Positions 2,197 to 49,831 of a DNA stretch of 64,000 nucleotides are shown piece after piece; the first letter of the stretch is position 1; each line of letters opens with the position of its first letter. The stretch covers positions 186,001 to 250,000 of the forward strand of contig MKTL01000001.1 in assembly GCA_001897605.1 (NCBI GenBank), read 5' to 3'. The translations under genes and the position numbers were made by a program. Under the pieces are notes generated by a model. The model was not told the DNA's origin. It searched no databases and was given only the letters and a program-made list of their open reading frames with translations. Source of the stretch: Clostridiales bacterium 38-18. GTDB taxonomy: Bacteria > Bacillota > Clostridia > Peptostreptococcales > Acidaminobacteraceae.

Positions 2197-2239
2197 TGTG
2201 CGTCCAGTCACATATTTAAAATGGGAAAGACCGTATAAT
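2197..2239 (+). promoter_or_regulatory. pflB promoter with CRP/FNR-type site at -41.5
   Basis: TGTGC-GTCCAG-TCACA (2197-2212) matches the TGTGA-N6-TCACA palindrome of the CRP/FNR family in 9 of 10 positions. A TATAAT box lies at 2234-2239 and there is no good -35 box. With a start at about 2246, the palindrome centre (2204.5) is exactly at -41.5, the class II activator position. This is a prediction from sequence only. Confidence 0.6.
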
Positions 2240-2300
2240 GAACTCAAGAATTAAGTATTATGTATACAAGATAAGAGGTTCGGCAGATACGGAGGTACTC

Positions 2301-4556
2301 ATGAAAAGGGAATTTGTAAAGGGAAACTGGGAAAATTCAATAGATGTAAGAGATTTTATTCAAAAAAATTACACGCCTTATACAGGTGATGATGCTTTCT
2401 TGGTTAAAATGAGTGATAAAACAAGCAAGGTTTGGGCGAAATCAAAAGCTTTAATTGAAGAAGAAATTGAAAAGGGCATCATTGATATTGAAACAAATGT
2501 TTTTTCAGGCATTGATGCATTTAAACCAGGCTACATCGAAAAAGAAAACGAAGTCATTGTGGGTTTTCAAACAGATGCCCCACTTAAAAGAATCATGAAT
2601 CCTTATGGTGGTTTCAGAATGCTAGAAGGCTCGCTTGAAGCATATGGTTACCACATGGACTCAGAGATGGCAGATGACTTTAAAACCTATAGAAAAACAC
2701 ATAACGAAGGTGTATTTGACGCTTATACATCTGATATGAAAGCGGCTAGATCAGTTGGTCTATTAACTGGATTACCAGATGCTTATGGTAGAGGTCGCAT
2801 CATCGGAGATTATAGAAGAATTGCACTTTATGGGACTGACCGATTGATTTCAGAGAAGAAAAAGGACTTAAGAAACTTTGAGAGGGCACCTGCAACTGAA
2901 GTCAATATTAGACATAGAGAAGAAATCTCTATGCAAATCGCTGCTTTAAAAGAAATTACTGCTATGGCAAAAAGCTATGGCGATGATATTACAAAGCCAG
3001 CTGAAACGGCAAGAGAAGCAGTTCAGTTCTTCTACTATGGTTACCTTGCAGCGATTAAAGAAAACAATGGCGCTGCTATGTCTCTCGGTAGAAATACCGC
3101 ATTTTTAGATATCTATATTGAAAGAGAAATCGAAGCTGGCCTACTTACAGAGGTTGAAGCACAAGAGTTGATCGATCAATTGGTCATAAAATTAAGAATG
3201 GTTCGTCATCTTAGAACACCTGACTACAATACCTTGTTTGCAGGAGATCCAACATGGGTGACCGAATCAATTGGCGGTGTAGGTGAAGATGGTAGAACGC
3301 TGGTTACAAAAACAGCCTTCAGATTTTTGCATACACTTACTAACCTTGATCCAGCGCCAGAACCGAACATGACTGTGTTATGGTCAGAGGCGCTTCCTAT
3401 GAACTTCAAGCGTTACTGTGCAAAGATGTCTATCGATACGGGCGCTATTCAATACGAAAACGATGACCTAATGAGACCGATTTATGGTGATGATTATGGT
3501 ATCGCATGCTGTGTTTCACCAATGCGTATCGGTAAAGACATGCAGTTTTTTGGAGCGAGAAGCAATTTAGCTAAAGCGTTACTCTATGCGATTAATGAAG
3601 GCAACGATGAATATAAAAGAGAAAAAGATGGGTCTGTAATTAACGTATTAACAGGTGTACCAAAGTTAGTGGACGCAAATCAATCAAATGAAGTCTTAAT
3701 CTTTGAAGAAGTCATGGTGAATTTTAAAACCGTCATGCAATCACTTGCAGAACTTTATGTAAATACCATGAACACGATCCACTTTATGCACGACAAGTAC
3801 GCATATGAAAAAGGACAGATGGCATTACATGATTCAGATGTCCATCGCTATATGGCGTTTGGAGTAGCAGGTTTATCAATCGTGGCGGATTCACTGAGTG
3901 CGATTAAATATGCGAAAGTATCACCGGTTAGAGACGAAAAGGGCATCGCTATCGATTTTAAAATCGAAGGTGAGTTCCCGATGTTTGGTAATGATGATGA
4001 TCGTGTGGATTTCATAGCAAAAGAGGTACTTGAATTCTTCTCAAGTGAGCTTAAAAAGCATGAAGCCTACAGAGGTGCTGACAAAACCTTATCTGTACTA
4101 ACCATTACTTCTAACGTCGTCTATGGTAAGAAAACAGGCGCAACACCTGATGGTAGAGCAAAGGGCGAAGCATTTGCACCCGGTGCAAATCCAATGCATG
4201 GTCGTGATCAAATGGGCGCACTGGCATCGCTTAACTCAGTTGCAAAGCTTCCTTTTGAAGGCGTTTGCCAGGATGGTATCTCAAATACATTTTCAATTGT
4301 ACCAACAGCGCTTGGACGTTCAGAAGCAGATCGTGAGAACAATTTAGCAGGTCTTTTAGATGGCTACTTTGGAAAAGATGCTTTCCATCTAAATGTCAAT
4401 GTTTTATCGCGTCAATTACTTGTTGATGCAATGGAAAATCCAGCGAAATACCCAACTTTAACGATTAGAGTTTCTGGATATGCGGTTCACTTTAACCGAT
4501 TGACGAGAGAGCAAAAGGAAGAGGTCATCAGAAGAACCTTCCATGAAAGAGTATAG
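2301..4556 (+). CDS. pflB: Formate C-acetyltransferase (pyruvate formate-lyase)
   Basis: The glycyl-radical enzyme converts pyruvate and CoA to acetyl-CoA and formate in anaerobic fermentation. At 751 aa it has normal length. The adjacent catalytic cysteines are visible in GIACCVSP (C403, C404), and the C-terminal radical loop RVSGYAV places the radical glycine at residue 726. The start at 2301 is chosen because GGAGG ends 5 nt before it; the upstream in-frame ATG at 2238 lies inside the predicted -10 box. The activating enzyme follows, then a CRP/FNR-type regulator. Regulation by that regulator through the site at 2197-2212 is an inference. Confidence 0.97.
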
Positions 4557-4702
4557 ATCAAGTCTAATAGCATGAAACTTTTGAGCTTTGGATAGTTTAA
4601 ATTTCGAATAGAATCATGTGCAAATATTAAATAGAGATAATACCGAGAAATCGGAAAAAATGAGGAATGAATCATATAAAAAGAGAAAGGTGTGTGGTCG
4701 TA

Positions 4703-5458
4703 ATGACAGGAAAATTACATTCGATAGAAACGATGGGGCTGGTTGATGGTCCAGGTATAAGAACGGTTTTTTTCTTACAAGGTTGTCCTTTAAGATGTCT
4801 TTACTGCCACAACCCAGATTCTCAGTCTTTCAAGGGAGAGAAAACCATAACAACGGAAGAAGTGGTTGCCCTTGCAAGTCGTTATAAAAGCTATTACAAG
4901 GCGTCAGGCGGTGGTGTTACCTTTTCAGGTGGTGAACCACTTATGCAAGGTGAGTTCGTACTTGAAGCTTTTAAAGCACTTAAAGCAGAAGGCATCACAA
5001 CCTGCGTTGACACTTCTGGTTATGGACAGATGGCTTATTATCAAGCAATCTTTCAAGTAACCGATCACATCTTGCTGGATATCAAACATCCAAGAGAAGA
5101 AATGCATAAAGAAATCACAGGTTTAGATATGAGTGGGATTAGAAATTTTATTCAAGAGGTCAGCAAAGGCTTTGACGGGACTGTTACCATACGTCATGTC
5201 ATGGTGCCGGGCTATTCTGATAGCAGTGAAATCATTGAAGAAATCCTCGATATCATTGAACCCATTCAAAAAAAAGTTGATAAAATTGACATTTTGCCTT
5301 ATCATAAAGCTGGAACTGAAAAATATTCTCAATTAAATATCCCCTATCAGTTAGAAACGGTTCCAGCTATGAATCAAGATCGCGCAGGTATTTTCGAGAA
5401 AGAAATCAATGAAAAGCTGAATGCACGAAAAAAAAAGACGCTATCTAGAATAGCGTAG
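4703..5458 (+). CDS. pflA: Pyruvate formate-lyase activating enzyme (radical SAM)
   Basis: This 251-aa radical SAM enzyme generates the glycyl radical in PflB. The [4Fe-4S] motif CX3CX2C (C28, C32, C35) and the SAM-binding SGGEP are present, and the N-terminal GLVDGPGIR segment is typical of PFL activases. The start is uncertain: ATG 4703 and GTG 4694 are both downstream of AGAAAGG, and 4667 is also in frame but lacks a spaced ribosome site. It lies 146 bp after pflB with no terminator between them. A 7-bp hairpin (5438-5456) overlaps the 3' end just before the ribosome site of the next gene. Confidence 0.95.
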   Translation: MTGKLHSIETMGLVDGPGIRTVFFLQGCPLRCLYCHNPDSQSFKGEKTITTEEVVALASRYKSYYKASGGGVTFSGGEPLMQGEFVLEAFKALKAEGITTCVDTSGYGQMAYYQAIFQVTDHILLDIKHPREEMHKEITGLDMSGIRNFIQEVSKGFDGTVTIRHVMVPGYSDSSEIIEEILDIIEPIQKKVDKIDILPYHKAGTEKYSQLNIPYQLETVPAMNQDRAGIFEKEINEKLNARKKKTLSRIA

Positions 5459-5473
5459 GAAGGTGATCCTATT
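5459..5473 (+). promoter_or_regulatory. Ribosome site that fixes an AUU start codon
   Basis: AGGTGATCC (5461-5469) is a nine-base match to the complement of the 16S rRNA 3' end. The first in-frame codon at normal spacing, 7 nt after AGG, is ATT at 5471. No ATG, GTG or TTG occurs in this frame until 5696, which would remove a third of the regulator. Confidence 0.65.
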
Positions 5474-6193
5474 TTATCAGTTAAATGCAACCATGATCAG
5501 TGTATAAAATGCGGAAAACTATTATGTATTAACAACATCCCCTTACTGTCAGGTCTTGACGATAAAGAAATTGAAAAGATCTCGGAAGGGGTTTCTTCAC
5601 GTGAATATAAAAAGGGTGACATTATTTTCTCGCAAGGAGAAAAAGCCAATAAGCTCTTTATTGTTTGTACGGGAAAAATCAAAATTTTTAAAAACATGAT
5701 GGATGGAAAAGAGCAGATTCTTTACATTTTATCAGAGGGTGATTTTATTGGCGCTTTTAACCTATTAAAGGAAGATGAGTTTGATTTCAGTGCAGTTGCA
5801 CTTGAGAATACGCAAATCAGTACTCTTGAGAAATCATCCTTTGATAAGGTAATGATCAGTAATCCAGAAATCACACTTAAGATATTTGAAAAGGCCTATG
5901 AGCGCATCATTAAAGCTGAGAGTCTTGTTCAGAGACTATCAAGTAGCAACCCCGATGCGAAGGTAATTGGACTTTTAATCGACTTGGCAGCTGATTTTGG
6001 TAAGCCTGACGATGAAGGTGGTGTAATGCTAGAACTCACCATCAATCGCGAGGAGATGGGGAGCTATGCCGGTATCGCAAGGGAAACCATGTCTCGTAAG
6101 CTACAGCTATTTGATGAAATGGGCCTCATAAAGCTACTGGGTGTCAAAAAAATACTGATCTATGATTTAGATAAGCTTAAGGCAATGATATAA
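5471..6193 (+). CDS. CRP/FNR-family transcriptional regulator with N-terminal cysteine cluster
   Basis: From ATT 5471 the protein is 240 aa, the usual family length; from the first ATG (5696) it would be 165 aa and lack the N-terminal half of the cNMP-like beta-barrel. The N-terminus holds four cysteines, C6, C11, C14 and C19, suggestive of an FNR-like Fe-S or redox sensor, though the spacing differs from E. coli FNR. The effector domain reads EKANKLFIVCTGKIKIF, and the C-terminal helix-turn-helix contains RETMSRKL, with the E..SR contact residues of FNR. It lies 12 nt after pflA, so it is probably co-transcribed with pflBA and may control it. The ligand is unknown. Confidence 0.88.
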   Translation: MLSVKCNHDQCIKCGKLLCINNIPLLSGLDDKEIEKISEGVSSREYKKGDIIFSQGEKANKLFIVCTGKIKIFKNMMDGKEQILYILSEGDFIGAFNLLKEDEFDFSAVALENTQISTLEKSSFDKVMISNPEITLKIFEKAYERIIKAESLVQRLSSSNPDAKVIGLLIDLAADFGKPDDEGGVMLELTINREEMGSYAGIARETMSRKLQLFDEMGLIKLLGVKKILIYDLDKLKAMI

Positions 6194-6537: not shown

Positions 6538-6638
6538 ACGACACGCCCCTTTCTAGTATATAGATATCCGAACAAAAGTTTAATAAACACAATTGAGATT
6601 CAATTTCATTAAAAAAAAGTAATTAATTCAATTCATAG

Positions 6639-6667
6639 TTGACAAGTCGGAATTGATTGCGTATACT
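6639..6667 (+). promoter_or_regulatory. Sigma-A promoter of the cysteine transporter leader
   Basis: TTGACA (6639-6644) is separated by exactly 17 bp from TATACT (6662-6667). Transcription would start near 6674, giving a leader of about 340 nt before the first transporter gene. Confidence 0.85.
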
Positions 6668-6700
6668 TCAAACAGAAACTATGAGATTGGGAGTCATTTT

Positions 6701-6787
6701 ATGAATCGTATAGAGTATAAGAGCTTACAATTGAATCCAAGTCGTTTAGCATGCTGTTGCTGTTGTTCTTTCGAAAGAAGTGAATAA
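6701..6787 (+). CDS. 28-aa leader peptide with five consecutive Cys codons
   Basis: This very short ORF encodes MNRIEYKSLQLNPSRLA, then CCCCC, then SFERSE. The Cys codons (TGC TGT TGC TGT TGT) occupy 6752-6766. GGGAG lies 7 nt before the ATG and a strong promoter lies 30-60 bp upstream. It sits in the leader of an amino-acid ABC transporter, upstream of an intrinsic terminator. It has the design of an attenuation leader peptide, so its function would be to stall ribosomes when charged tRNA-Cys is short. No function as a protein is suggested. Confidence 0.82.
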   Translation: MNRIEYKSLQLNPSRLACCCCCSFERSE

Positions 6788-6876
6788 TGGCTAATTTGAG
6801 TGCTAAAAAATAGTTTCCACATCTAGATGAATATTTGTAATCTATGGGAAGGTTTTTAGACCTTCCCATTTTTTTT
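6745..6876 (+). promoter_or_regulatory. Ribosome-mediated transcription attenuator responding to Cys-tRNA
   Basis: Three mutually exclusive pairings are visible. (1) TTTAGCA (6745-6751), directly before the Cys codons, pairs perfectly with TGCTAAA (6801-6807). (2) An antiterminator: CTAAAAA (6803-6809) with TTTTTAG (6853-6859), plus TTCC-A-CAT (6815-6822) with ATGGGAA (6844-6850). (3) The terminator ATGGGAAGGT (6844-6853) with ACCTTCCCAT (6860-6869), followed by eight T. A ribosome stalled at the Cys codons would cover the first segment, free the second and so block the terminator. The pairings are seen; the mechanism is inferred from classical attenuators. Confidence 0.8.
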
Positions 6877-7013
6877 GTTCAAAAGTATACTTGCAGTCAC
6901 AAATGAAATACGTTCGAAAGTATTTCAAAATATTGAAGATTTTCAAAGTTAATTTTGAAAAACAAATAAAACAATAAATTGAATTTATTAGAGAAAAATA
7001 AGGGAGAACAAAA

Positions 7014-7883
7014 ATGAAAAATAAAAGTTTAATAATCATACTCATCATTGCCGTAGTGGGCATAGCTTTATACGCGGGTAGCCAACTACTGTCAGGCAAG
7101 AATACAGAGAATACAGCAGCTAATAGCACTGAGATGACATCAACAGAGATTAATAACACCGAAGGATCAAGTAGTGATACGACTGAATCAACTGCAATAA
7201 AAGTTGGTATGAGTGGTTCTTATAAGCCGTACACCTATTTAGATGAAAGCGGCACATTGACAGGCTTTGATGTAGAGGTTTGGCAAGAAATTGCTAAAAG
7301 AACAGGTAGGGAAGTAGAGTTCGTTACCAGTGATTTTAGCGGTCTTTTTGGGATGTTAGACGTAGGTCAGATCGATACAATTGCCAACCAAATTACCATA
7401 ACTGATGAGCGCTTAGAAAAATACGATTTTTCAGTGCCTTATGTCTACTATGGGGCACAGCTTATGACGAGAGCTGATGATGATTCTGTGTATGACCTTG
7501 AAACCTTAAAAGGTAAGAAAGTTGGCGTTAGCTTAGGCTCAAACTATGAAACGATGGTGAAGGCATTTGATACCGCAAATGAAATCACAGTGGTGACATA
7601 CGACAGTGGTTCAGGCGCATATCAAGATTTGTCACTGGGCAGAATCGACGCTGTATTAAACGACAAATTGGCACTGCTTTCAGTAGTGAACGAGTCAGGT
7701 TTAAACTTAAAGCTTGCAGGTGAGCCGATCGAATCGCTTACAAATGCTTTTCCTTTCGTAAAAAGTGAAGCAAATGGTGCATTTCTAATCGAAGTCAATC
7801 AAGCGATTGAAGCCATGTATGCGGATGGTACGATGAAATCACTTTCACTTAAATATTTCAACGTCGATATAACAGAAAGGTAG
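7014..7883 (+). CDS. Amino-acid ABC transporter substrate-binding protein (cystine/cysteine inferred)
   Basis: This is a family 3 periplasmic-type binding protein of 289 aa. After a hydrophobic N-terminal segment (residues 5-25) and a Ser/Thr/Asn-rich linker, the ligand-binding domain begins near residue 63 (KVGMSGSYKPYTYLDES, then FDVEVWQEIAKRTG). The lipobox position reads LLSGK instead of ending in Cys, so it is probably held by an uncleaved membrane anchor. The protein contains no cysteine at all. It is the first gene after the poly-Cys leader attenuator, which is the basis for the inferred substrate. The permease follows after 4 nt. Confidence 0.9.
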   Translation: MKNKSLIIILIIAVVGIALYAGSQLLSGKNTENTAANSTEMTSTEINNTEGSSSDTTESTAIKVGMSGSYKPYTYLDESGTLTGFDVEVWQEIAKRTGREVEFVTSDFSGLFGMLDVGQIDTIANQITITDERLEKYDFSVPYVYYGAQLMTRADDDSVYDLETLKGKKVGVSLGSNYETMVKAFDTANEITVVTYDSGSGAYQDLSLGRIDAVLNDKLALLSVVNESGLNLKLAGEPIESLTNAFPFVKSEANGAFLIEVNQAIEAMYADGTMKSLSLKYFNVDITER

Positions 7884-7887
7884 ACGC

Positions 7888-8553
7888 ATGAACTTTAAAC
7901 CTGAGGTGCTGGTAAATGCTTTTGTTGAATTGACAAAAGCATTGCCAAGAACTTTACTGATAGCAATCATCGCCATGGCGATAGGACTTATTTTAGGAAC
8001 GATCATCGGCATATTGCGACAAACCAAACTCAATAAAATGCTTGGTGTATGGGTTTCTTTCTTTAGAGGAACCCCACTGATGATTCAGCTGTTTTTATTT
8101 TTCTTCGGATTACCACAGTTGTTTCCCATAATTGGAAAACTTAGCGCTTTTCAATCAGCGGTTTTGGTAATGGGTATTAATGCCAGTGCCTATGTGGCTG
8201 AATCTATCAGAGGTGCTCTTGGAGCCGTGGATTCATTACAAAGTGATGCTGCTTACACGGTTGGTCTAACAAAGCTGCAAACCCTTTGGTACATCGTTTT
8301 GCCACAGGCGATGAAAATCGCTTTACCTTCACTGGGCAACACTTTTATAGGCGTCATCCAAGGGACATCGTTAACCTTTATGCTTGGCATCAGCGATTTA
8401 CTAGGTCTTGCCAAAATGCGTGCCGCTCAAAATTATCGATTCTTCGAGGTTTATCTTGCTGTAGGCATATGGTATTGGTTGATCGTAATGGCAGTTACTT
8501 TCATTAATAAGCAGCTTGAAAATAAGATGGCTGCGGGAAAGGAGAGCATCTAA
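7888..8553 (+). CDS. Amino-acid ABC transporter permease (cystine/cysteine inferred)
   Basis: This 221-aa HisM/GlnP-type inner-membrane permease has an FFRGTPLMIQ segment typical of polar amino-acid permeases and an EAA-type coupling loop, SDAAYTVGLTKLQTLWYIVLP. About five membrane segments are visible. Translation is coupled to the ATPase gene, since the stop and the next start overlap as TAATG. No cysteine is present. The substrate is inferred from the leader peptide alone; the permease family itself does not decide between cystine and other polar amino acids. Confidence 0.92.
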   Translation: MNFKPEVLVNAFVELTKALPRTLLIAIIAMAIGLILGTIIGILRQTKLNKMLGVWVSFFRGTPLMIQLFLFFFGLPQLFPIIGKLSAFQSAVLVMGINASAYVAESIRGALGAVDSLQSDAAYTVGLTKLQTLWYIVLPQAMKIALPSLGNTFIGVIQGTSLTFMLGISDLLGLAKMRAAQNYRFFEVYLAVGIWYWLIVMAVTFINKQLENKMAAGKESI

Positions 8554-9332
8554 TGTTATATGAGTCGAATGACTTAAAGTCAGTGCCAATCCTAAAAGTA
8601 ACTGGATTAACCAAACGTTACGGTCAATTAACGGTGCTGGATCAAGTGGACTTTGAACTGAGCAAAGGGGAAGTCGTCGCTATTATTGGGCCCTCTGGAT
8701 CGGGGAAATCTACTTTAATAAAGTCGCTGAATTTGTTGGTTAAGCCAGATGCCGGTACTTACGAAATAGAGGGTACCAGCTTGACCATTCAGAAAATAAC
8801 TAAAGCCTTTCAAAAATCACTGGTAGAAAAAACGGGAATGGTTTTTCAAAATTTTGGTCTCTTTAGCCATCTTACCGTACTGAAAAATCTGACACTACCA
8901 CTTGTAAAAGCAAAGGGTCTAAGTGAAAAAGAGGCAGATCATAGAGCGAAAAATGTCCTTCAACAGGTTGGACTTGAAGACAAACTAGCGTCCTTCCCAC
9001 ATCAACTGTCTGGTGGACAGCAGCAACGTGTCGGCATCGCCAGAGCACTGGCGCTTGAACCAGAAGTCCTCTTATTAGATGAACCAACTTCTGCACTTGA
9101 TCCTGAGCGTGTGGGTGAAGTTTTAGAGGTGATAAAGGCACTCAGCCGTCAAGGGTTTACCATGGTAGTTGTCACACATGAGATGCAGTTTGCAAAGAAA
9201 GTAGCGGATCGAATCGTATTTATGGACGAAGGAAAAATCATCACACAGGGCGCACCAGAAACGATTTTCTCAAATCATGCACCTGAAAGAGTGAAACAGT
9301 TCTTAAATCGTTTTAACCTTTACACAATCTAA
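8553..9332 (+). CDS. Amino-acid ABC transporter ATP-binding protein (cystine/cysteine inferred)
   Basis: This 259-aa ATPase energises the transporter. Walker [10 protein letters not shown] is at residues 46-54, the signature LSGGQQQR begins at residue 152, Walker [12 protein letters not shown] follows, and the switch histidine is in VTHEM. It is the last gene of the three-gene operon and, like its partners, contains no cysteine; the three proteins together make 769 residues without one. No clear terminator follows, and a TtcA-like gene begins 126 bp later. Confidence 0.94.
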   Translation: MLYESNDLKSVPILKVTGLTKRYGQLTVLDQVDFELSKGEVVAIIGPSGSGKSTLIKSLNLLVKPDAGTYEIEGTSLTIQKITKAFQKSLVEKTGMVFQNFGLFSHLTVLKNLTLPLVKAKGLSEKEADHRAKNVLQQVGLEDKLASFPHQLSGGQQQRVGIARALALEPEVLLLDEPTSALDPERVGEVLEVIKALSRQGFTMVVVTHEMQFAKKVADRIVFMDEGKIITQGAPETIFSNHAPERVKQFLNRFNLYTI

Positions 9333-9458: not shown

Positions 9459-10325
9459 ATGAGTGAACAATTGAGGGGAAGTGGCTGTGAGTTAATACTT
9501 GCAACTTCACCACTTAAAAGCGTTGAGGAAATTGAAAGAAGCATTATTAAAAAGTATCGTAAAACCATTTGGACACAGTTTATTAAAGCGGTTAAAGAGT
9601 TCAAGCTCATTGAAGAAGGCGACCGTATCGCTGTCGGTGTCTCAGGTGGTAAGGATAGTTTGATTCTTTGTAAGCTTTTACAAGAGATTCAAAGACACGG
9701 ACAAGTGAAGTTTGAGCTAGAATTTTTAGCGATGAATCCAGGCTATCATCCGGTGAATGAAAAGCTTTTAAAGGAGAACTGTGCACATCTAAATATTCCC
9801 ATCACATATTTCGACTCAGGTATTTTTGAAGTGGTAGATAAAATTTCAAGTGATTATCCCTGCTATATGTGTGCCAAGATGAGAAGAGGCACCTTATATG
9901 CGAAGGCTAAGGAAGTGGGCTGTAACAAGCTTGCGCTTGGTCACCATTTTGATGACGTTATCGAAACTCAGCTCCTCAATATCTTTTATGCAGGAATGAC
10001 AAAAACCATGATGCCTAGACTCAAATCAGATAACTTCGAAGGACTAGAGCTCATCCGTCCGATGTACTATATTAGAGAAGAGGAAATCATCCACTTTACG
10101 AAAAGCTCAGGTCTAGCACCGATGAACTGTGGCTGTATGGTTGCAGCTAAAAAGACATCGAGCAAACGACTGGAAATGAAAGCCCTTATTAAGCAACTTA
10201 AGGCTTCAAATCCTGATGTGGAAAAGAGTATCCTCAAATCCGCTCACAACGTTCAAATGGACTGTGTGGTGGGCTGGCAAAAAAGTGGCAAGATGCATAA
10301 TTTCTTAGACGATTATTTTGATTAA
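9459..10325 (+). CDS. TtcA-like PP-loop tRNA thiolation ATPase
   Basis: This 288-aa member of the adenine-nucleotide alpha hydrolase family has the PP-loop SGGKDS (residues 62-67), a CYMC pair (C135, C138) and a later CGC (C224, C226). These match the TtcA/TtuA group, which adenylates a tRNA base and inserts sulfur with the help of a [4Fe-4S] cluster bound by such cysteines. TtcA makes 2-thiocytidine in tRNA; other members have other targets, so the exact base is uncertain. AAAGGAAATACC precedes the ATG. Its place between the cysteine transporter and cysS fits a sulfur-related role. Confidence 0.8.
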   Translation: MSEQLRGSGCELILATSPLKSVEEIERSIIKKYRKTIWTQFIKAVKEFKLIEEGDRIAVGVSGGKDSLILCKLLQEIQRHGQVKFELEFLAMNPGYHPVNEKLLKENCAHLNIPITYFDSGIFEVVDKISSDYPCYMCAKMRRGTLYAKAKEVGCNKLALGHHFDDVIETQLLNIFYAGMTKTMMPRLKSDNFEGLELIRPMYYIREEEIIHFTKSSGLAPMNCGCMVAAKKTSSKRLEMKALIKQLKASNPDVEKSILKSAHNVQMDCVVGWQKSGKMHNFLDDYFD

Positions 10326-10400: not shown

Positions 10401-10607
10401 TAGTAACGCGTTGATCGAGAAAAGTAGTTATAGTGGCGAGTTTAGAGAGCCTTCGGATGGTGCAAGAGGGTCTTAAAGCTATAGTGAATGCCCTCGTGAG
10501 TGCAGCCCGAAAAGAGTAGGCGCTGCCGGCTGACCCCGTTAATCGTCTCAGAGACACAAACAAAGTGGAACCGCGATATCCCTCGCCTTTGTATAGGCGA
10601 GGTTTTT
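10401..10607 (+). promoter_or_regulatory. T-box leader, specifier TGC (Cys), for cysS
   Basis: The conserved T-box core GTGGAACCGCG lies near 10565-10575. In the specifier loop the usual GAA precedes TGC (10489-10491), a Cys codon, followed by CCTCGTGAG. The leader ends in a terminator, CCTCGCCT (10581-10588) with AGGCGAGG (10595-10602) and five T. Uncharged tRNA-Cys is expected to stabilise the antiterminator and allow cysS transcription. The specifier agrees with the gene downstream. Confidence 0.93.
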
Positions 10608-10696
10608 ATATTTTTTGACATAAGAAACATCACCCATGTTGCATTCATAATCAATCAAATAAGTATACTTAATAAATGAATCAGGAGGTCAAAATT

Positions 10697-12157
10697 ATGA
10701 AACTTTATAATTCTATGTCCAAAAGCATTGAGGCTTTTGTGCCGTATCATGAAAATGAGGTCAAGCTTTATACTTGTGGACCGACCGTCTACAATTATGC
10801 CCATATCGGCAATCTCAGAACCTACATCCACGAGGATATCCTTCAAAAATCACTTGAGCTACTCGGCTATGACGTAAAGCGTGTGATGAACATCACAGAT
10901 GTTGGGCACCTTGAATCAGATGCGGACGATGGCGAGGATAAAATGCTAAAGGGCGCTCTAAGGGAAAATAAGACCGTATGGCAAATCGCGCAGTACTATA
11001 CAGATGCATTCTTTAAAGACTGCGAAAAGCTCAATATACAAAAGCCGGACGTCGTTGCGAAAGCCACGGACTACATCGACAAATACATCGACTTTATTAA
11101 AACACTAGAAGATAAAGGGTATACTTACTCAGCAAATGGCAATGTTTACTTTGACATCTCAAAGTTCGACCGCTATACGGCGCTTTCTAAGATGAACCTT
11201 GAAGAGCTGCGTGTCGCACATAGAGACGATGTAGAAGAGGATACCTTTAAAAAGAATCCACAGGATTTTGTGCTTTGGTTTACTAAGTCAAAGTTTGAAA
11301 ACCAAGCGATGAAATGGGATTCGCCATGGGGTGTTGGCTATCCTGGCTGGCACATCGAATGTTCAGTCATCTCTTTGACGAACCTAGGTGAACAGCTGGA
11401 CATACACTGTGGTGGTGTGGATCACATCCCTGTACATCACACAAACGAAATCGCTCAAACAGAGAGTTACACGGGCAAACCTTGGACCAAGTACTGGTGG
11501 CATGCTGAATTCCTAATCGAATCAGAAGGCAAAATGAGCAAATCATCAGGTGAATTTTTAACCGTTTCACTTCTTGAGAAAAAAGGCTACGACCCACTTA
11601 GCTACCGCTATTTTGTACTTGGCTCACATTATAGAAAGCAATTGACTTTCTCTTATGATAGCTTGGACATGGCTCAAAATGCTTACTTTAAGCTGAGAAA
11701 AAGAACCTCAGCTTTAGCGGAAGCAAATGGCTACCAAGCTAAAGGTAAAACTGCTAGAAATTATACAGATATGAGTTCAAAGGTGTTGAGCGGGTTAACC
11801 AGTGAAGCAAAAACATTAGTGGAAAAGTTTAAGGATTGCCTTGCAGATGACTTAAATACAGCAAATGCACTTACAGTTGTATACGATGTATTAAAAGCGG
11901 ACATAAAGGATACTGAAAAGGTAGATTTGTTCGAATATATGGACACGGTGCTGTCATTAAAATTACTTGAGCCAGTAGAGTCATTAAATGCAGAAGTATC
12001 AGATGACGAAGTACAGTGGATTGAAGCGCAGCTTGTAAAACGCGCTGAAGCTAAAAAGAACAAAGACTGGGCGACAGCAGATGCTATAAGAGATGCTTTT
12101 AAAGAAAAAGGCATTACAATTATAGACACACCTGAAGGTGCTAAGTGGCAGAAATAG
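10697..12157 (+). CDS. cysS: Cysteinyl-tRNA synthetase
   Basis: This 486-aa class I aminoacyl-tRNA synthetase charges tRNA-Cys. The HIGH motif appears as HIGN (residues 36-39), preceded by the zinc ligand in CGPT (C27), and KMSKS is at 279-283. ECSVIS and HCGGVDHIPVHHTNE supply further zinc and active-site residues. The start at 10697 is chosen for AGGAGG eight nt upstream; an in-frame ATG at 10676 precedes that ribosome site. It is controlled by the T-box leader at 10401-10607. Confidence 0.97.
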   Translation: MKLYNSMSKSIEAFVPYHENEVKLYTCGPTVYNYAHIGNLRTYIHEDILQKSLELLGYDVKRVMNITDVGHLESDADDGEDKMLKGALRENKTVWQIAQYYTDAFFKDCEKLNIQKPDVVAKATDYIDKYIDFIKTLEDKGYTYSANGNVYFDISKFDRYTALSKMNLEELRVAHRDDVEEDTFKKNPQDFVLWFTKSKFENQAMKWDSPWGVGYPGWHIECSVISLTNLGEQLDIHCGGVDHIPVHHTNEIAQTESYTGKPWTKYWWHAEFLIESEGKMSKSSGEFLTVSLLEKKGYDPLSYRYFVLGSHYRKQLTFSYDSLDMAQNAYFKLRKRTSALAEANGYQAKGKTARNYTDMSSKVLSGLTSEAKTLVEKFKDCLADDLNTANALTVVYDVLKADIKDTEKVDLFEYMDTVLSLKLLEPVESLNAEVSDDEVQWIEAQLVKRAEAKKNKDWATADAIRDAFKEKGITIIDTPEGAKWQK

Positions 12158-43893: not shown

Positions 43894-44149
43894 CAATATA
43901 ACATATACAGTGTTGAAAGAGAGCGGTGTTAATCAGGTTTCTATAGAGAGTCGGTGGTTGGTGTAAATCGATGAAAACTATTAATACAAATCACTCCGGA
44001 GCTTTCATCTCGAAACTTAGTAAAGGTGAACGGGACGTCCCGTTATAGACGAAGGATTTGTTAGAATCCGTTTGAGTGGCCAAAGGCAATTAGGGTGGTA
44101 ACGCGAGCGAACCTCGTCCCTACAGTTTCTGTAGTGACGAGGTTTTTTT
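43894..44149 (+). promoter_or_regulatory. T-box leader, specifier ATC (Ile)
   Basis: The core AGGGTGGTAACGCG (44092-44105) is a clear T-box. In the specifier loop, ATC (43990-43992) lies before A-CTCCGGAG, aligned with the TGC of the Cys T-box and the AGA of the Arg T-box in this window, so the sensed tRNA is inferred to be tRNA-Ile. A palindromic AACGGGACGTCCCGTT (near 44029-44044) forms an internal hairpin. A strong terminator, CCTCGTC with GACGAGG and an inner CTACAG/CTGTAG, ends the leader at 44149. Confidence 0.88.
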
Positions 44150-45847: not shown

Positions 45848-46177
45848 CAAGTTCATATAAAAATGCGTTCGAAAAAAAGAAAATATAACCGAGCTGGTTC
45901 AGCGATATGGGGATGGTGTGAGCCCATACAAAAGCGAAGTTATTGAGAACTTTTTTAAGCAACTTGCAAGAAAAGGGTTAAAAGTAAGGCAAGTCGGAAG
46001 TCCACCGTTAAAGGGAATAAGTATCGGCAAGTGTTGCCCGTACTGAATCAGAGAGAGCTTAAGCTAATTTGGGTGGCACCGCGGAGTAATTCGTCCCAAG
46101 AAAACGATGGATATTTCAGGTGTGACATATAAACGCTGACTAAGCACATTTAATAATCCTCTGAGGGTTATTTTTTT
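45848..46177 (+). promoter_or_regulatory. T-box leader, specifier AGA (Arg), for the argGH-transporter operon
   Basis: The core TTGGGTGGCACCGCGG (46069-46084) and CGTCCCAA make the antiterminator. In the specifier loop AGA (45946-45948), an Arg codon, comes before A-CTTTTTTAAG, in the same register as the other two T-boxes. Stem I contains GGTGTGAGCC. A terminator AATAATCCT with AGGGTTATT (46152-46172) and a T-run end the leader. Uncharged tRNA-Arg should switch on argG and the genes behind it. Confidence 0.85.
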
Positions 46178-46229
46178 ATGCTCATAATGTATAAATATCC
46201 AAATAAATGTATATATATTGGAGGTAGGT

Positions 46230-47528
46230 ATGAAAAAGAAAGTGGTTTTGGCCTATTCAGGCGGACTGGATACATCGGTTATTTTGAAATGGCTTCAAAT
46301 GGAACACGATTTTGACGTTATCGCTGCTTGTATAGATGTTGGTCAAAAGGATGATTTTGAAGCAGTTGCAAAGAAAGCACTTCAAACAGGTGCATCAAAG
46401 GTTTATATTGCAGATGTTAAAGAGGCTTTTGTTAAAGAGTTCTTATTTGAGGGTTTAATGGCGGGTGCCGTATATGAGGAAGATTATTTACTAGGTACTG
46501 CATTTGCTCGACCATTGATTGCAAAAGCACTTGTGGAAATAGCACTTAAAGAGGACGCAGTCGCTATCGCACATGGTGCAACTGGTAAAGGCAATGATCA
46601 AGTTCGATTTGAAGCTGGTATTAAAGGGTTAGCACCTCATCTGGATATTATCGCACCATGGCGTACCTGGTCACTCAAATCGCGTGAGGATTGTATCGAT
46701 TACGCAGCCAAGTATCATATTCCTCTTAGTGTTACTAAAAAAGACATTTACTCAAGAGATGAGAATTTATGGCATATCAGTCATGAGGGCGGAGAATTAG
46801 AAAGCCCTTGGAATGAGCATACAAAAGCCATTTACAAATGGTGTACCTCACCAGATGAAGCACCAGATCAATCTGAAACGATTACGATTGGATTTAATCA
46901 AGGTGTTCCTTACAGCATTAATGGAGAAGCTTACGATCCCGTTTCCTTGATCGAAACATTAAATCAGATGGCTGGTAAACACGGTGTTGGCATTATCGAT
47001 ATCGTTGAAAATCGATTGGTTGGAATGAAGTCGAGAGGTGTCTATGAGACACCAGCGGGTACTGTGCTTTATGAAGCGCATAAAGCACTTGAAAAATTAG
47101 TATTAGATCGACAAACGATGTCTTTTAAAAAGCAAATTGCTTTGAAATATAGCGAACTCACCTACGACGGACAATGGTTCACACCATTGATGGATGCACT
47201 CCAAGCATTTGTTGCAACGACGCAGAAAAACGTCACTGGAAATGTAAAGCTAAAGCTTTTCAAAGGCAGCTGTCAAGCAGTTGCATCAGAGTCGCCTTAT
47301 TCACTTTATCGTGAAGACTACGTGACATTTTCAGAAGATGAGGTTTATAACCAGTACGATGCACACGGCTTTATCAACCTATTTACACTTCCGATTAAGC
47401 TGAAGGCATTGATGGAAGAAGATTTGGCTAGTAAGAATCAAAGCGAAATCGGTAATAAAAAAGATAAAGAATTATCCGTTTCTACACTTAACCTTCAAGT
47501 ATATGGTGGGGAGGAGATCGCAGTATGA
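46230..47528 (+). CDS. argG: Argininosuccinate synthase
   Basis: This 432-aa enzyme joins citrulline and aspartate with ATP in arginine synthesis. The PP-loop-type signature [10 protein letters not shown] is at residues 8-17, and [14 protein letters not shown] and [10 protein letters not shown] are further family segments. The family end (PIKLKALM) is followed by a hydrophilic tail of about 35 residues not usual in ArgG. GGAGGTAGGT sets the ATG at 46230; a longer frame starts with TTG inside the ribosome site. It overlaps argH by 4 nt. Confidence 0.96.
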
Positions 47529-48919
47529 AGGCATGGTCAGGACGATTTAGTGAAGATACAGATGAACTGATGGTTCAATTCAATGCTTCGCTACCATTTG
47601 ACTACCAGCTTTTGAAAGAAGATATAACCGGATCAAAGGGACATGCAAAGATGCTTGAGAAAATTGGCATTCTATCGTCTGAGGAGCTTACTCTAATTGA
47701 AAAGGGTTTAGAAGAGGTTGAAAAAGATTTGATCGAAGAGATGAAGGTAAGCTCAGATTGGTGTGACCTTGAGAAAGAAGACATTCACATGTTAGTTGAA
47801 TCGAGGTTGACATCACTTATCGGAGATGTTGGTAAAAAGCTCCATACTGCTAGAAGTCGAAATGATCAAGTCGCGGTAGATTTAAAGCTATATTTGATCG
47901 ATGCCTCACATGAAGTCATTGACCTGTTAGTCGCTTTAAATGCACTTTTGATTGAGCTTTCTGAAATGCATAAAGACGTAATTTTACCCGGCTATACGCA
48001 TCTTCAAAGGGCGCAGCCAATTCGTTTAAGCTTCTATCTTATGGCTTACTTTCAAATGTTTAAAAGAGACATCGAGCGACTAGAGGATGGACTTAAAAGA
48101 ATTAAGATTTCACCACTGGGCTCAGGTGCACTCGCAGGTGTTAGCTATGAAAGTGATCGTTTTTTCACAGCAAAGCTACTTGGTTTTGATGAAGTGAGTG
48201 ATAACGCGCTTGATGCGGTATCGGATCGCGATCACGTAATTGAATTTAATGCTACATCGGCGATCCTCATGATGCATTTAAGTCGAATGGCAGAGGAAAT
48301 GATTATTTGGAGCACCAGTGAATTTGGGTTCATAAAAATCAGCGATAAATTTACAACGGGCAGTAGTATTATGCCACAGAAGAAAAATCCAGATGCAGCT
48401 GAGCTAATCAGAGGTAAAACAGGTCGTGTATATGGTAATCTCGTGTCAATATTAACCGTCATGAAAGCACTTCCATTAGCCTACAACAAGGATATGCAAG
48501 AAGATAAGGAAGGTTTGTTTGATACCGTTACGACATTAAAGATGTGTTTGAACGTCATGACAAAAATGTGGCTTGAGACCACATTTGACAAAGACAGGAT
48601 GCTCTTAGCAGTAAAAAAGGGGTTTTTAAATGCAACGGACCTAGCGGATTATTTGACTAAAAAGGGAATTCCCTTTAGAGAAAGCCATCACATCACTGGT
48701 CAAATCGTTGGCATATGTGAAAAAATGGGGGCATCAATAGAGGACTTGAGCTTGTCGCAGCTAAAAGCGCTTTGCCCACAGATAGAATCTGATATTTATG
48801 AAAAAATTAAACCGATTGAGGTTGTTGAAGCAAAGGTTTCTTATGGTTCTACGGCTATGAAGGCCATCGAACAGAGTATTGAAAATGGCAAAGCCATACT
48901 AAATAAATATAAAAAATAA
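47525..48919 (+). CDS. argH: Argininosuccinate lyase
   Basis: This 464-aa enzyme splits argininosuccinate into arginine and fumarate. The fumarase/aspartase superfamily signature [12 protein letters not shown] is present with [12 protein letters not shown] and [11 protein letters not shown]. It begins with ATGA overlapping the argG stop, so the two are coupled. An ABC transporter binding protein follows after 18 nt, in the same operon under the Arg T-box. Confidence 0.97.
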
Positions 48920-48937
48920 CTTGTGGAGGAAATAAAA

Positions 48938-49831
48938 ATGAAGAAATTGGGAATGAAAAAAATGTTGAAGTCGATTATGGCACTATCACTTATGCTAGTG
49001 ATGATACTTTCAGTAGCGGGTTGCGCTAGCACTGATGCAACGAAAGCTACAGATACAACTGCTGCTGAAACAACAGCAGCTGCAGCTTCTGAAACAACTG
49101 CTGCGGTAGCAAAAACAAAATTAGATGAAATTAAAGAAAAAGGCGTTTTAGTACTTGGTACATCAGCAGATTACCCACCTTTTGAGTTTCACTTAGAGGT
49201 AGATGGAAAAGATACAATTGTTGGATTTGATATCGACATCGCTAAGAAAATCGCGTCTGACATTGGTGTAGAACTTGAAATTATCGATATGAAATTTGAT
49301 GGTCTTCTACCAGCTCTTACAGCAGGTAAAATTGACTTAATCATCGCAGGTATGACGCCAACAGATGAAAGAAAGCAATCTGTAGACTTCTCAATCGTAT
49401 ATTATGATTCTCGCCAAACGATGCTCGTTAAAACAGATAATGTGAATACTTTAAACACAGTTGAAGCATTTGCGGGTAAAACATTAGGCGTACAAAAAGC
49501 AACCATCCAAGAAGAATTAGCAAAAACAATCTTTACTTCATCAGAAGCAAAATCAATCGATAAGATTCCAAACTTAATTATGGAACTAAAAACAGACAAA
49601 GTGGATGGTTTAATCTTAGCAGAACCAGTTGCAAAGCAATACGCAGCAGCAAATCCAGATCTATCCGTTAATGGCGTGGATTTAGGAAGTGAAGGCGGTT
49701 CGGCCATTGCTATCGAAAAAGGCTCACAAGATTACCTAGATGCAATCAACGCAAGCATTCAAGGTTTACTCGACTCAGGTGAAATGGACAAAATTATCTC
49801 GGATGCAATGTTATTAAGTGAAGGTGAATAA
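48938..49831 (+). CDS. Amino-acid ABC transporter binding lipoprotein (arginine inferred)
   Basis: This 297-aa family 3 binding protein is a lipoprotein with lipobox LSVAGC, followed by a Thr/Ala-rich linker and the binding domain (LVLGTSADYPPFEFH, then FDIDIAKKIASDIG, and later IIAGMTPTDERK). GGAGG sets the ATG at 48938. It is 18 nt after argH and therefore within the Arg T-box operon, which is the main reason to infer arginine as its ligand. The binding motif alone would only say polar amino acid. Confidence 0.9.
   Translation: MKKLGMKKMLKSIMALSLMLVMILSVAGCASTDATKATDTTAAETTAAAASETTAAVAKTKLDEIKEKGVLVLGTSADYPPFEFHLEVDGKDTIVGFDIDIAKKIASDIGVELEIIDMKFDGLLPALTAGKIDLIIAGMTPTDERKQSVDFSIVYYDSRQTMLVKTDNVNTLNTVEAFAGKTLGVQKATIQEELAKTIFTSSEAKSIDKIPNLIMELKTDKVDGLILAEPVAKQYAAANPDLSVNGVDLGSEGGSAIAIEKGSQDYLDAINASIQGLLDSGEMDKIISDAMLLSEGE

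Follow-up and report, generated by a model that had tools for sequence, protein, structure and literature searches.

Attenuators of the enteric trp and his type consist of regulatory codons, a protector hairpin, an antiterminator and a terminator. Leader ORFs with Cys codons have been described in several bacterial lineages. In Rhodobacterales, the uORFC-8-2 motif is located before cysS, and ribosome-mediated attenuation by charged tRNA-Cys has been proposed (PMC8632094). The cys operons of Actinobacteria have poly-Cys leader peptides (PMC1262725), and Cys-responsive attenuation with 'leaderless' ORFs is reported for mycobacteria (title of Canestrari 2020, cited in PMC13236596). In bacilli, His leader peptides precede hisZ and hisS* (PMC2965389), and in clostridia, T-boxes serve Cys genes (PMC2940859).

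Here we analyze a poly-Cys leader ORF located upstream of an ABC transporter operon of Clostridiales bacterium 38-18 (contig MKTL01000001.1, positions 186,001 to 250,000; this entire stretch of 64,000 nt is denoted the window; Table 1). The initial annotation described the leader as a classical ribosome-mediated attenuator for charged tRNA-Cys. We assign a probability of about 0.72 to the reading that it is a ribosome-mediated transcription attenuator that would read charged tRNA-Cys and control a cystine ABC transporter. Judging from its sequence and conservation, the leader device is real, conserved and, in all likelihood, functional, and the five-Cys uORF very probably is a cysteine gauge that would decide whether the cystine-import operon is on or off.

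Layout of the leader and the transporter operon

Table 1. Features of the leader, the transporter operon and its 3' neighborhood, in window coordinates
Feature	Position (strand)	Remarks
Sigma-70-type promoter TTGACA-17-TATACT	6639..6667 (+)	-35 6639-6644; 17-bp spacer; -10 TATACT 6662-6667; 11/12 consensus matches
Shine-Dalgarno (SD) sequence of the leader ORF, GGGAG	6689..6693 (+)	7 nt 5' of ATG
Leader ORF (uORF) MNRIEYKSLQLNPSRLACCCCCSFERSE	6701..6787 (+)	28 codons; ATG 6701, TAA 6785-6787; poly-Cys uORF at the equivalent place in relatives
Segment 1, UUUAGCA	6745..6751 (+)	pairs with 6801-6807; G002 has UUUCAG:CUGAAA here instead
Five consecutive Cys codons, TGC TGT TGC TGT TGT	6752..6766 (+)	proposed tRNA-Cys sensor
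Hairpin with Cys codons in the 5' arm and the uORF stop codon in the 3' arm	6756..6795 (+)	equivalent in 5/5 leaders
Segment 2, UGCUAAA	6801..6807 (+)	in a GUGCU block kept in 4/5 leaders
Predicted antiterminator, 5' strand	6806..6819 (+)	gain -8.4 kcal/mol
Intrinsic terminator with U-run	6844..6876 (+)	stem-loop 6844-6869, 11 bp, 4-nt loop; seven further T after 6869
Substrate-binding protein (SBP), cystine-transporter type	7014..7883 (+)	best NCBIfam match PRK11260 cystine SBP, E 1.6e-62, below curated cut-off
ABC permease	7888..8553 (+)	best match cystine permease PRK15100, E 1.5e-43, below curated cut-off
ABC ATPase	8553..9332 (+)	best match L-cystine TcyN PRK11264, E 1.6e-83, below curated cut-off
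TtcA-like protein	9459-10325	3' of the transporter operon
T-box before cysS	10402..10593 (+)	UGC in the specifier loop; context, outside the device
cysS	10676-12157	3' of the TtcA-like gene

The SD-led leader ORF with five Cys codons is present as initially annotated, and it is the only SD-led ORF of up to 60 codons with at least three consecutive Cys codons that our detector found on either strand of the whole window. The pattern TGYx5 occurs twice in the 3.4 Mb genome (the second time antisense inside what we read as a binding-protein gene) and the reversed control pattern does not occur at all. The leader folds better than its shuffles (z -3.97; 1 of 200 as good). It does not have the mycobacterial-type trait of a leaderless ORF: the predicted -10 box ends 33 nt 5' of the ATG, with the SD in between. 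The promoter that had been called consensus stands as a sequence close to the consensus, but promoter-like sites are as frequent in shuffles (3 in 6550-7020 vs 2.9), so that the scan alone proves nothing; by eye, TTGACA also precedes the uORF in all four relatives considered below. The terminator said to follow the leader ORF was recovered (one found vs 0.1 in shuffles).

A second mini-ORF, MANLSAKK (6787-6813), has a start codon that overlaps the poly-Cys uORF's stop codon (UAAUG), and it spans segment 2. In G002, one of the relatives, the equivalent start hits a stop after one codon (by eye), and thus the mini-ORF is probably fortuitous.

As had been noted, an ABC transporter is encoded downstream of the leader, with an SBP, a permease and an ATPase whose best matches are of the expected substrate class, cystine. 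Because all three subunits score below the curated cut-offs, cystine is only the probable substrate of the operon. The nearest solved chain to the SBP is 9d5w_A, an amino-acid binding protein (the ligand is not stated in the match). The region 5' of the leader (2238-6193) encodes, in our reading, a pyruvate formate-lyase-like enzyme and its activating enzyme, and a Crp/Fnr-like regulator is encoded at 5696-6193.

The window contains three T-boxes at the gathering score (RF00230), and none was detected at this score in the leader (6639-6876); the interpretation of the leader itself as a T-box was rejected on this ground. In the cysS T-box, UGC follows GAA in what we take to be the specifier loop. 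Another T-box is located at 43904-44124, and one at 45859-46101 precedes argG-argH-like genes (46218-49831), with a further amino-acid SBP gene at 48923 (the gene names are our own reading). The premise that T-boxes usually do this job in Firmicutes holds inasmuch as Cys T-boxes are known in clostridia (PMC2940859) and cysS has one here, but it does not extend to the more distant transporter homologs that lack the uORF: none of their 16 loci (20 loci scanned) has a T-box at the gathering score.

The leader and its Cys hairpin in related genomes

Orthologs were searched for in 41 genomes of the family, in 297 of the order, which were sampled from a larger group, and in the GTDB contigs, and the ortholog set comprised the 19 of the 297 order genomes with an SBP match at E < 1e-78. 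In five of these 19 genomes (the window, G002, G030, G048 and G103), the SBP gene is preceded by an SD-led uORF with three or more Cys codons in a row and by a terminator; the five represent three genera and two families. The search for conserved poly-Cys uORFs upstream of the same transporter, suggested in the initial annotation, thus yielded four other genomes, all with the same layout, namely, SD, uORF with 3 to 5 consecutive Cys codons, terminator and operon (SBP identity 61-74%). The uORF sequences are MKRISTNFKLNISVCCCCCPFEFSNE in G002, where the leader is identical to that of L057 ('Bacillota bacterium isolate FUSI1'); MKHSILGNSKISYTCCSCCCVYKT in G030, where it is identical to that of L058 (Acidaminobacter sp. 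JC074; in the NCBI taxonomy, Acidaminobacter belongs to Clostridia, order Peptostreptococcales); MKAQNLVSQINAFACCCCQEITKKLDNSFLWC in G048; and MKKLNSNPQSFNALCCCSSSVQKLDNSFLWC in G103. In the other 14 orthologs, the roughly 800 nt 5' of the match contained no SD-led uORF in which the detector found even a pair of adjacent Cys codons. The split tracks the SBP identity, which is 61-100% in the five genomes with the leader and at most 57% in the 14 genomes without it. The three-gene order is kept and the genes 5' of it differ between genomes, which indicates that the leader travels with the operon rather than with a conserved neighborhood. The first Cys codon is codon 15 in four leaders and codon 18 in the window, and the remainder of the peptide has diverged.

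As expected of an attenuator, all five leaders have a long hairpin whose 5' arm contains the regulatory codons. With shuffling restricted to the sequence 3' of the Cys run, the z-score of this hairpin was -5.2 in the window, -5.1 in G002, -5.4 in G048, -3.7 in G103 and -2.9 in G030, with 1, 0, 0, 1 and 8 of 500 shuffles each, respectively, reaching the native hairpin. The tips pair despite their different sequences: UUCUUUC with GAAG(U)GAA in the window, CAUUUGA:UCAAAUG in G002, GUCAAG:CUUGAU in G048 and UCUAGUU:AACUAGA in G103. The closing helix is formed by bases starting at most 28 nt 5' of the Cys run (overlapping the run in G030) and the downstream GUGCU-type block. It also differs in sequence, as seen in the helices of the window and G002 (Table 1); the pairing of the segment just before the Cys codons with 6801-6807, as originally drawn, was reproduced. 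The uORFs of G048 and G103 extend further and end within the GUGCU block, which gives these two leaders a different geometry. By formal counts on MAFFT columns, covariation is weak (both partners changed in three pairs, a result reached by 56 of 500 shuffles) because the MAFFT alignment mis-registers the helices. RNAalifold and pair counts say little for the same reason, the mis-registered hairpins in MAFFT alignments A1-A3, and we relied on per-leader folds.

Antiterminator folding and the competing readings

In the proposed mechanism, when Cys-tRNA is sufficient, the ribosome would pass the Cys codons and reach the stop codon at 6785; the Cys hairpin would then re-form, or the terminating ribosome would cover the region, and the terminator would fold. 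When Cys-tRNA is scarce, the ribosome would stall on 6752-6766 and keep the Cys hairpin open, and 6801-6819 would be free to pair with the left arm and loop of the terminator, with read-through into the transporter genes.

The alternative pairing of 6801-6807 with the terminator loop and left arm, as claimed in the initial annotation, is borne out to the extent that CUAAAAA at 6803-6809 and UUUUUAG at 6853-6859 are complementary. The antiterminator that is predicted (6806-6811:6852-6857, 6814-6819:6845-6850 and 6824:6844), however, overlaps with the helix 6745-6751:6801-6807 only at 6806-6807. The three pairings, described as exclusive, are only partly so, given that most of the antiterminator stays when this helix forms. 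Indeed, most antiterminator pairs survive in the ribosome-free fold of the window and G048, and G030 even gains some. In the window, the antiterminator gain was reached by 6 of 300 shuffled spacers (it beats 294 of 300); among the relatives, G103 is marginal (19 of 300), whereas G048 (75), G030 (138) and G002 (150) are ordinary. The Cys hairpin, by comparison, is non-random in all five leaders.

The antiterminator probability was calculated as that of the left arm being held upstream in nascent transcripts that end before the right arm of the terminator. In the window, a stall at the Cys codons changes this value little: the probability is 0.91 with the ribosome stalled at the first Cys codon (Cys1), 0.89 with no ribosome and 0.69 with the ribosome at the stop codon. 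For the Cys1 stall vs the ribosome-free state, the respective values are 0.63 vs 0.62 in G002, 0.82 vs 0.84 in G030, 0.55 vs 0.39 in G048 and 0.62 vs 0.37 in G103 (0.60 vs 0.22 with four right-arm bases out). Once the ribosome is placed on the third Cys codon, both G048 and G103 are back to the no-ribosome value. At the stop codon, the ribosome lowers the probability in the window, but in G048 and G103 the probability goes up (0.52). Accordingly, a mutually exclusive antiterminator freed by the stall shows a clear change only in G103 at Cys1 and a slight one in G048, and equilibrium folding predicts no clear stall-dependent switch in the window. Complete transcripts are predicted to fold the terminator in every ribosome state, so any control must be kinetic. 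Control is kinetic in the known attenuators.

The classical attenuator thus stands with respect to the uORF, the terminator, the matching transporter, the layout shared with four genomes and the Cys hairpin in all five leaders, whereas the exclusive pairings turned out to be weaker than envisaged. The assignment as a Cys-codon ribosome-mediated attenuator is well supported, whereas the exact switch is what we infer; likewise, support is good for the sensing half of the model and only partial for the three-way switch. In the predicted folds, the weak step is how strongly the Cys hairpin and the antiterminator exclude each other.

This weak step is where the most durable of the alternatives, which we nevertheless consider rather unlikely, comes in: the Cys codons would sense charged tRNA-Cys, but the stalled ribosome would act otherwise than by freeing the antiterminator drawn here, for instance, by preventing a pause or protector hairpin from closing, through RNA polymerase coupling or through Rho or RNase access, with the terminator being a leaky barrier. 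The Cys hairpin largely does not exclude the antiterminator, the stall changes little in the window, G002 and G030, and the antiterminator is ordinary in three of the five leaders, all of which fits such an action; on the side of transcription attenuation by a freed antiterminator are the intrinsic terminator found between the uORF and the operon in all five leaders, the rarity among shuffled spacers of an antiterminator as strong as that of the window, and the response of G103 to the stall at Cys1.

Sensing by the nascent poly-Cys peptide of metal, redox or thiol state, rather than of tRNA charging, is improbable. Poly-Cys peptides can bind metals, but only 4 to 14 codons separate the Cys run from the end of the uORF, and at termination the exit tunnel would therefore still hold the run; in addition, no other long stretch is shared by all five peptides, the operon is cystine-like, and Cys runs occur before cysK in another genus of the order as well (see below).

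A chance Cys run is ruled out by the rarity of TGYx5, the uORFs of the relatives and the hairpin z-scores, and the same rarity and z-scores, along with the recurrence of the arrangement in four other genomes with diverged sequence, leave next to no room for a chance ORF over an ordinary terminator without regulation, even if the uORF is short and its translation is a prediction.

Poly-Cys uORFs in wider surveys and comparison with known systems

A covariance model (R1) was run on 393 genomes of the order, with strict filters and eight candidates scored per genome. It matched 14 genomes at E up to 0.05, four of which are the training leaders; among the ten others, at 31-38 bits, the detector found no poly-Cys uORF in nine. 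The tenth (G188; L173/L244), a weak match, has a different poly-Cys uORF, MCCCCCCYNSKQLNNSIFYGGTLTFSKNGVTL (742-840 of L173), before another cysK-like gene. G030, which was outside the training set, scored 34.9 bits, no higher than chance matches, and is not among the 14. Under these filters, R1 thus detected no further clear homologs of the leader in the 393 genomes. Among 293 genomes of the class, TGYx6 runs are present in 70; among the 50 loci examined (30 automatically, 20 fetched), no SD-led poly-Cys uORF was tied to a Cys gene, with L254, L256, L267, L271 and L275 standing as SD-scored candidates.

Six-Cys runs are present in 93 of the 297 genomes of the order, and 70 loci were examined. 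This survey revealed a second set of SD-led uORFs, in which (F/Y)G(G/E)xS, often with an added S or N, leads into the Cys run, before genes that we read as cysK; the other SD-scored candidates are L127, L128 and L141. The cysK loci with a poly-Cys uORF are L207-L215 (genus g23) as well as L143-L145, L153, L158 and L162. A search with that cysK matched 75 genomes in all. Such a uORF, its run comprising three to six Cys codons, is present in each of the 9 matched g23 genomes and in none of the 21 other loci examined. At the g23 cysK leaders, no terminator was detected. Bases just before and within the Cys run (UCUC in 6 of 9) can pair with the cysK SD (GGAG in 7 of 9) and bases 5' of it; compared with 500 upstream shuffles, this pairing is strong in four leaders (reached by 0, 2, 6 and 10 shuffles) and ordinary in five. 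The predicted accessibility of the cysK SD rises with a ribosome on Cys1 in all nine (the smallest rise being 0.46 to 0.48 and the largest 0.23 to 0.79), but a block placed anywhere tends to free bases elsewhere. The cysK leaders of g23 are likely to be translational attenuators, as suggested by these predicted pairings.

In L143, L144, L145, L153, L158 and L162, a palindrome, TTTAATTCCTAGTA...CGGAATTAAA or a variant, is located between the promoter and the uORF (by eye). It resembles a CymR-type site, and cysK may be under two layers of control.

We see the odds as evenly divided on a broader reading, in which poly-Cys leader ORFs would serve one order of Clostridia as a gauge of Cys that acts in two ways, through transcription termination before the cystine transporter (the window and its four relatives) and, in nine genomes of another genus, through sequestration of the cysK SD by bases just before and within the Cys codons, beside a Cys T-box at cysS in the genome of the window. 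The same codon sensor may then act on translation instead, and (F/Y)G(G/E)xS would be kept for the RNA (UCUC against the SD GGAG), not for the peptide.

In line with the initial annotation, we found no described Cys leader-peptide attenuator in Clostridia in the open-licence literature, which is no proof of absence; the main texts of PMC11109978 and PMC6429828 mention neither cysteine, cystine nor cysK. Cys attenuators as such are known (PMC8632094, PMC1262725).

The clostridial Cys T-boxes resemble the proposed device in reading tRNA-Cys charging and controlling terminators of Cys genes, but their RNA binds the tRNA directly, without a translated ORF (PMC2940859), whereas the window leader has no T-box match. 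The His leaders of bacilli are likewise leader-peptide attenuators in a place where other Firmicutes carry a T-box, but differ in their His codons, their occurrence in Bacilli and their synthetase-like genes (PMC2965389). In Actinobacteria, Cys-codon runs are also found in a short ORF before Cys genes, without a conserved terminator (PMC1262725) and with ORFs denoted 'leaderless'; the leader described here is SD-led and has an intrinsic terminator. In layout, uORFC-8-2 is similar: its uORF starts with AUG and has its tandem Cys codons within the first stem, and an intrinsic terminator follows (PMC8632094). That motif, however, belongs to Alphaproteobacteria, is placed upstream of cysS and has two Cys codons, in contrast to the 3 to 5 consecutive Cys codons found here in Clostridia, where the downstream gene is a probable cystine ABC transporter gene.

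The enteric trp and his attenuators have regulatory codons, a protector hairpin and a terminator in common with the window leader, as well as an antiterminator, which is a prediction in the window, but pertain to another amino acid, other genes and another lineage, and in the window, the protector and the antiterminator overlap little. The device is classical in kind; in Clostridia, and ahead of a cystine transporter, it is apparently new, and the short list of Cys-codon attenuators would gain both this class and a cystine importer. The setting is an unexpected one, in that T-boxes usually get the credit for tRNA sensing in these bacteria; with both types of sensor about 3.5 kb apart, the locus lends itself to testing the division of labor between two different tRNA-Cys sensors.
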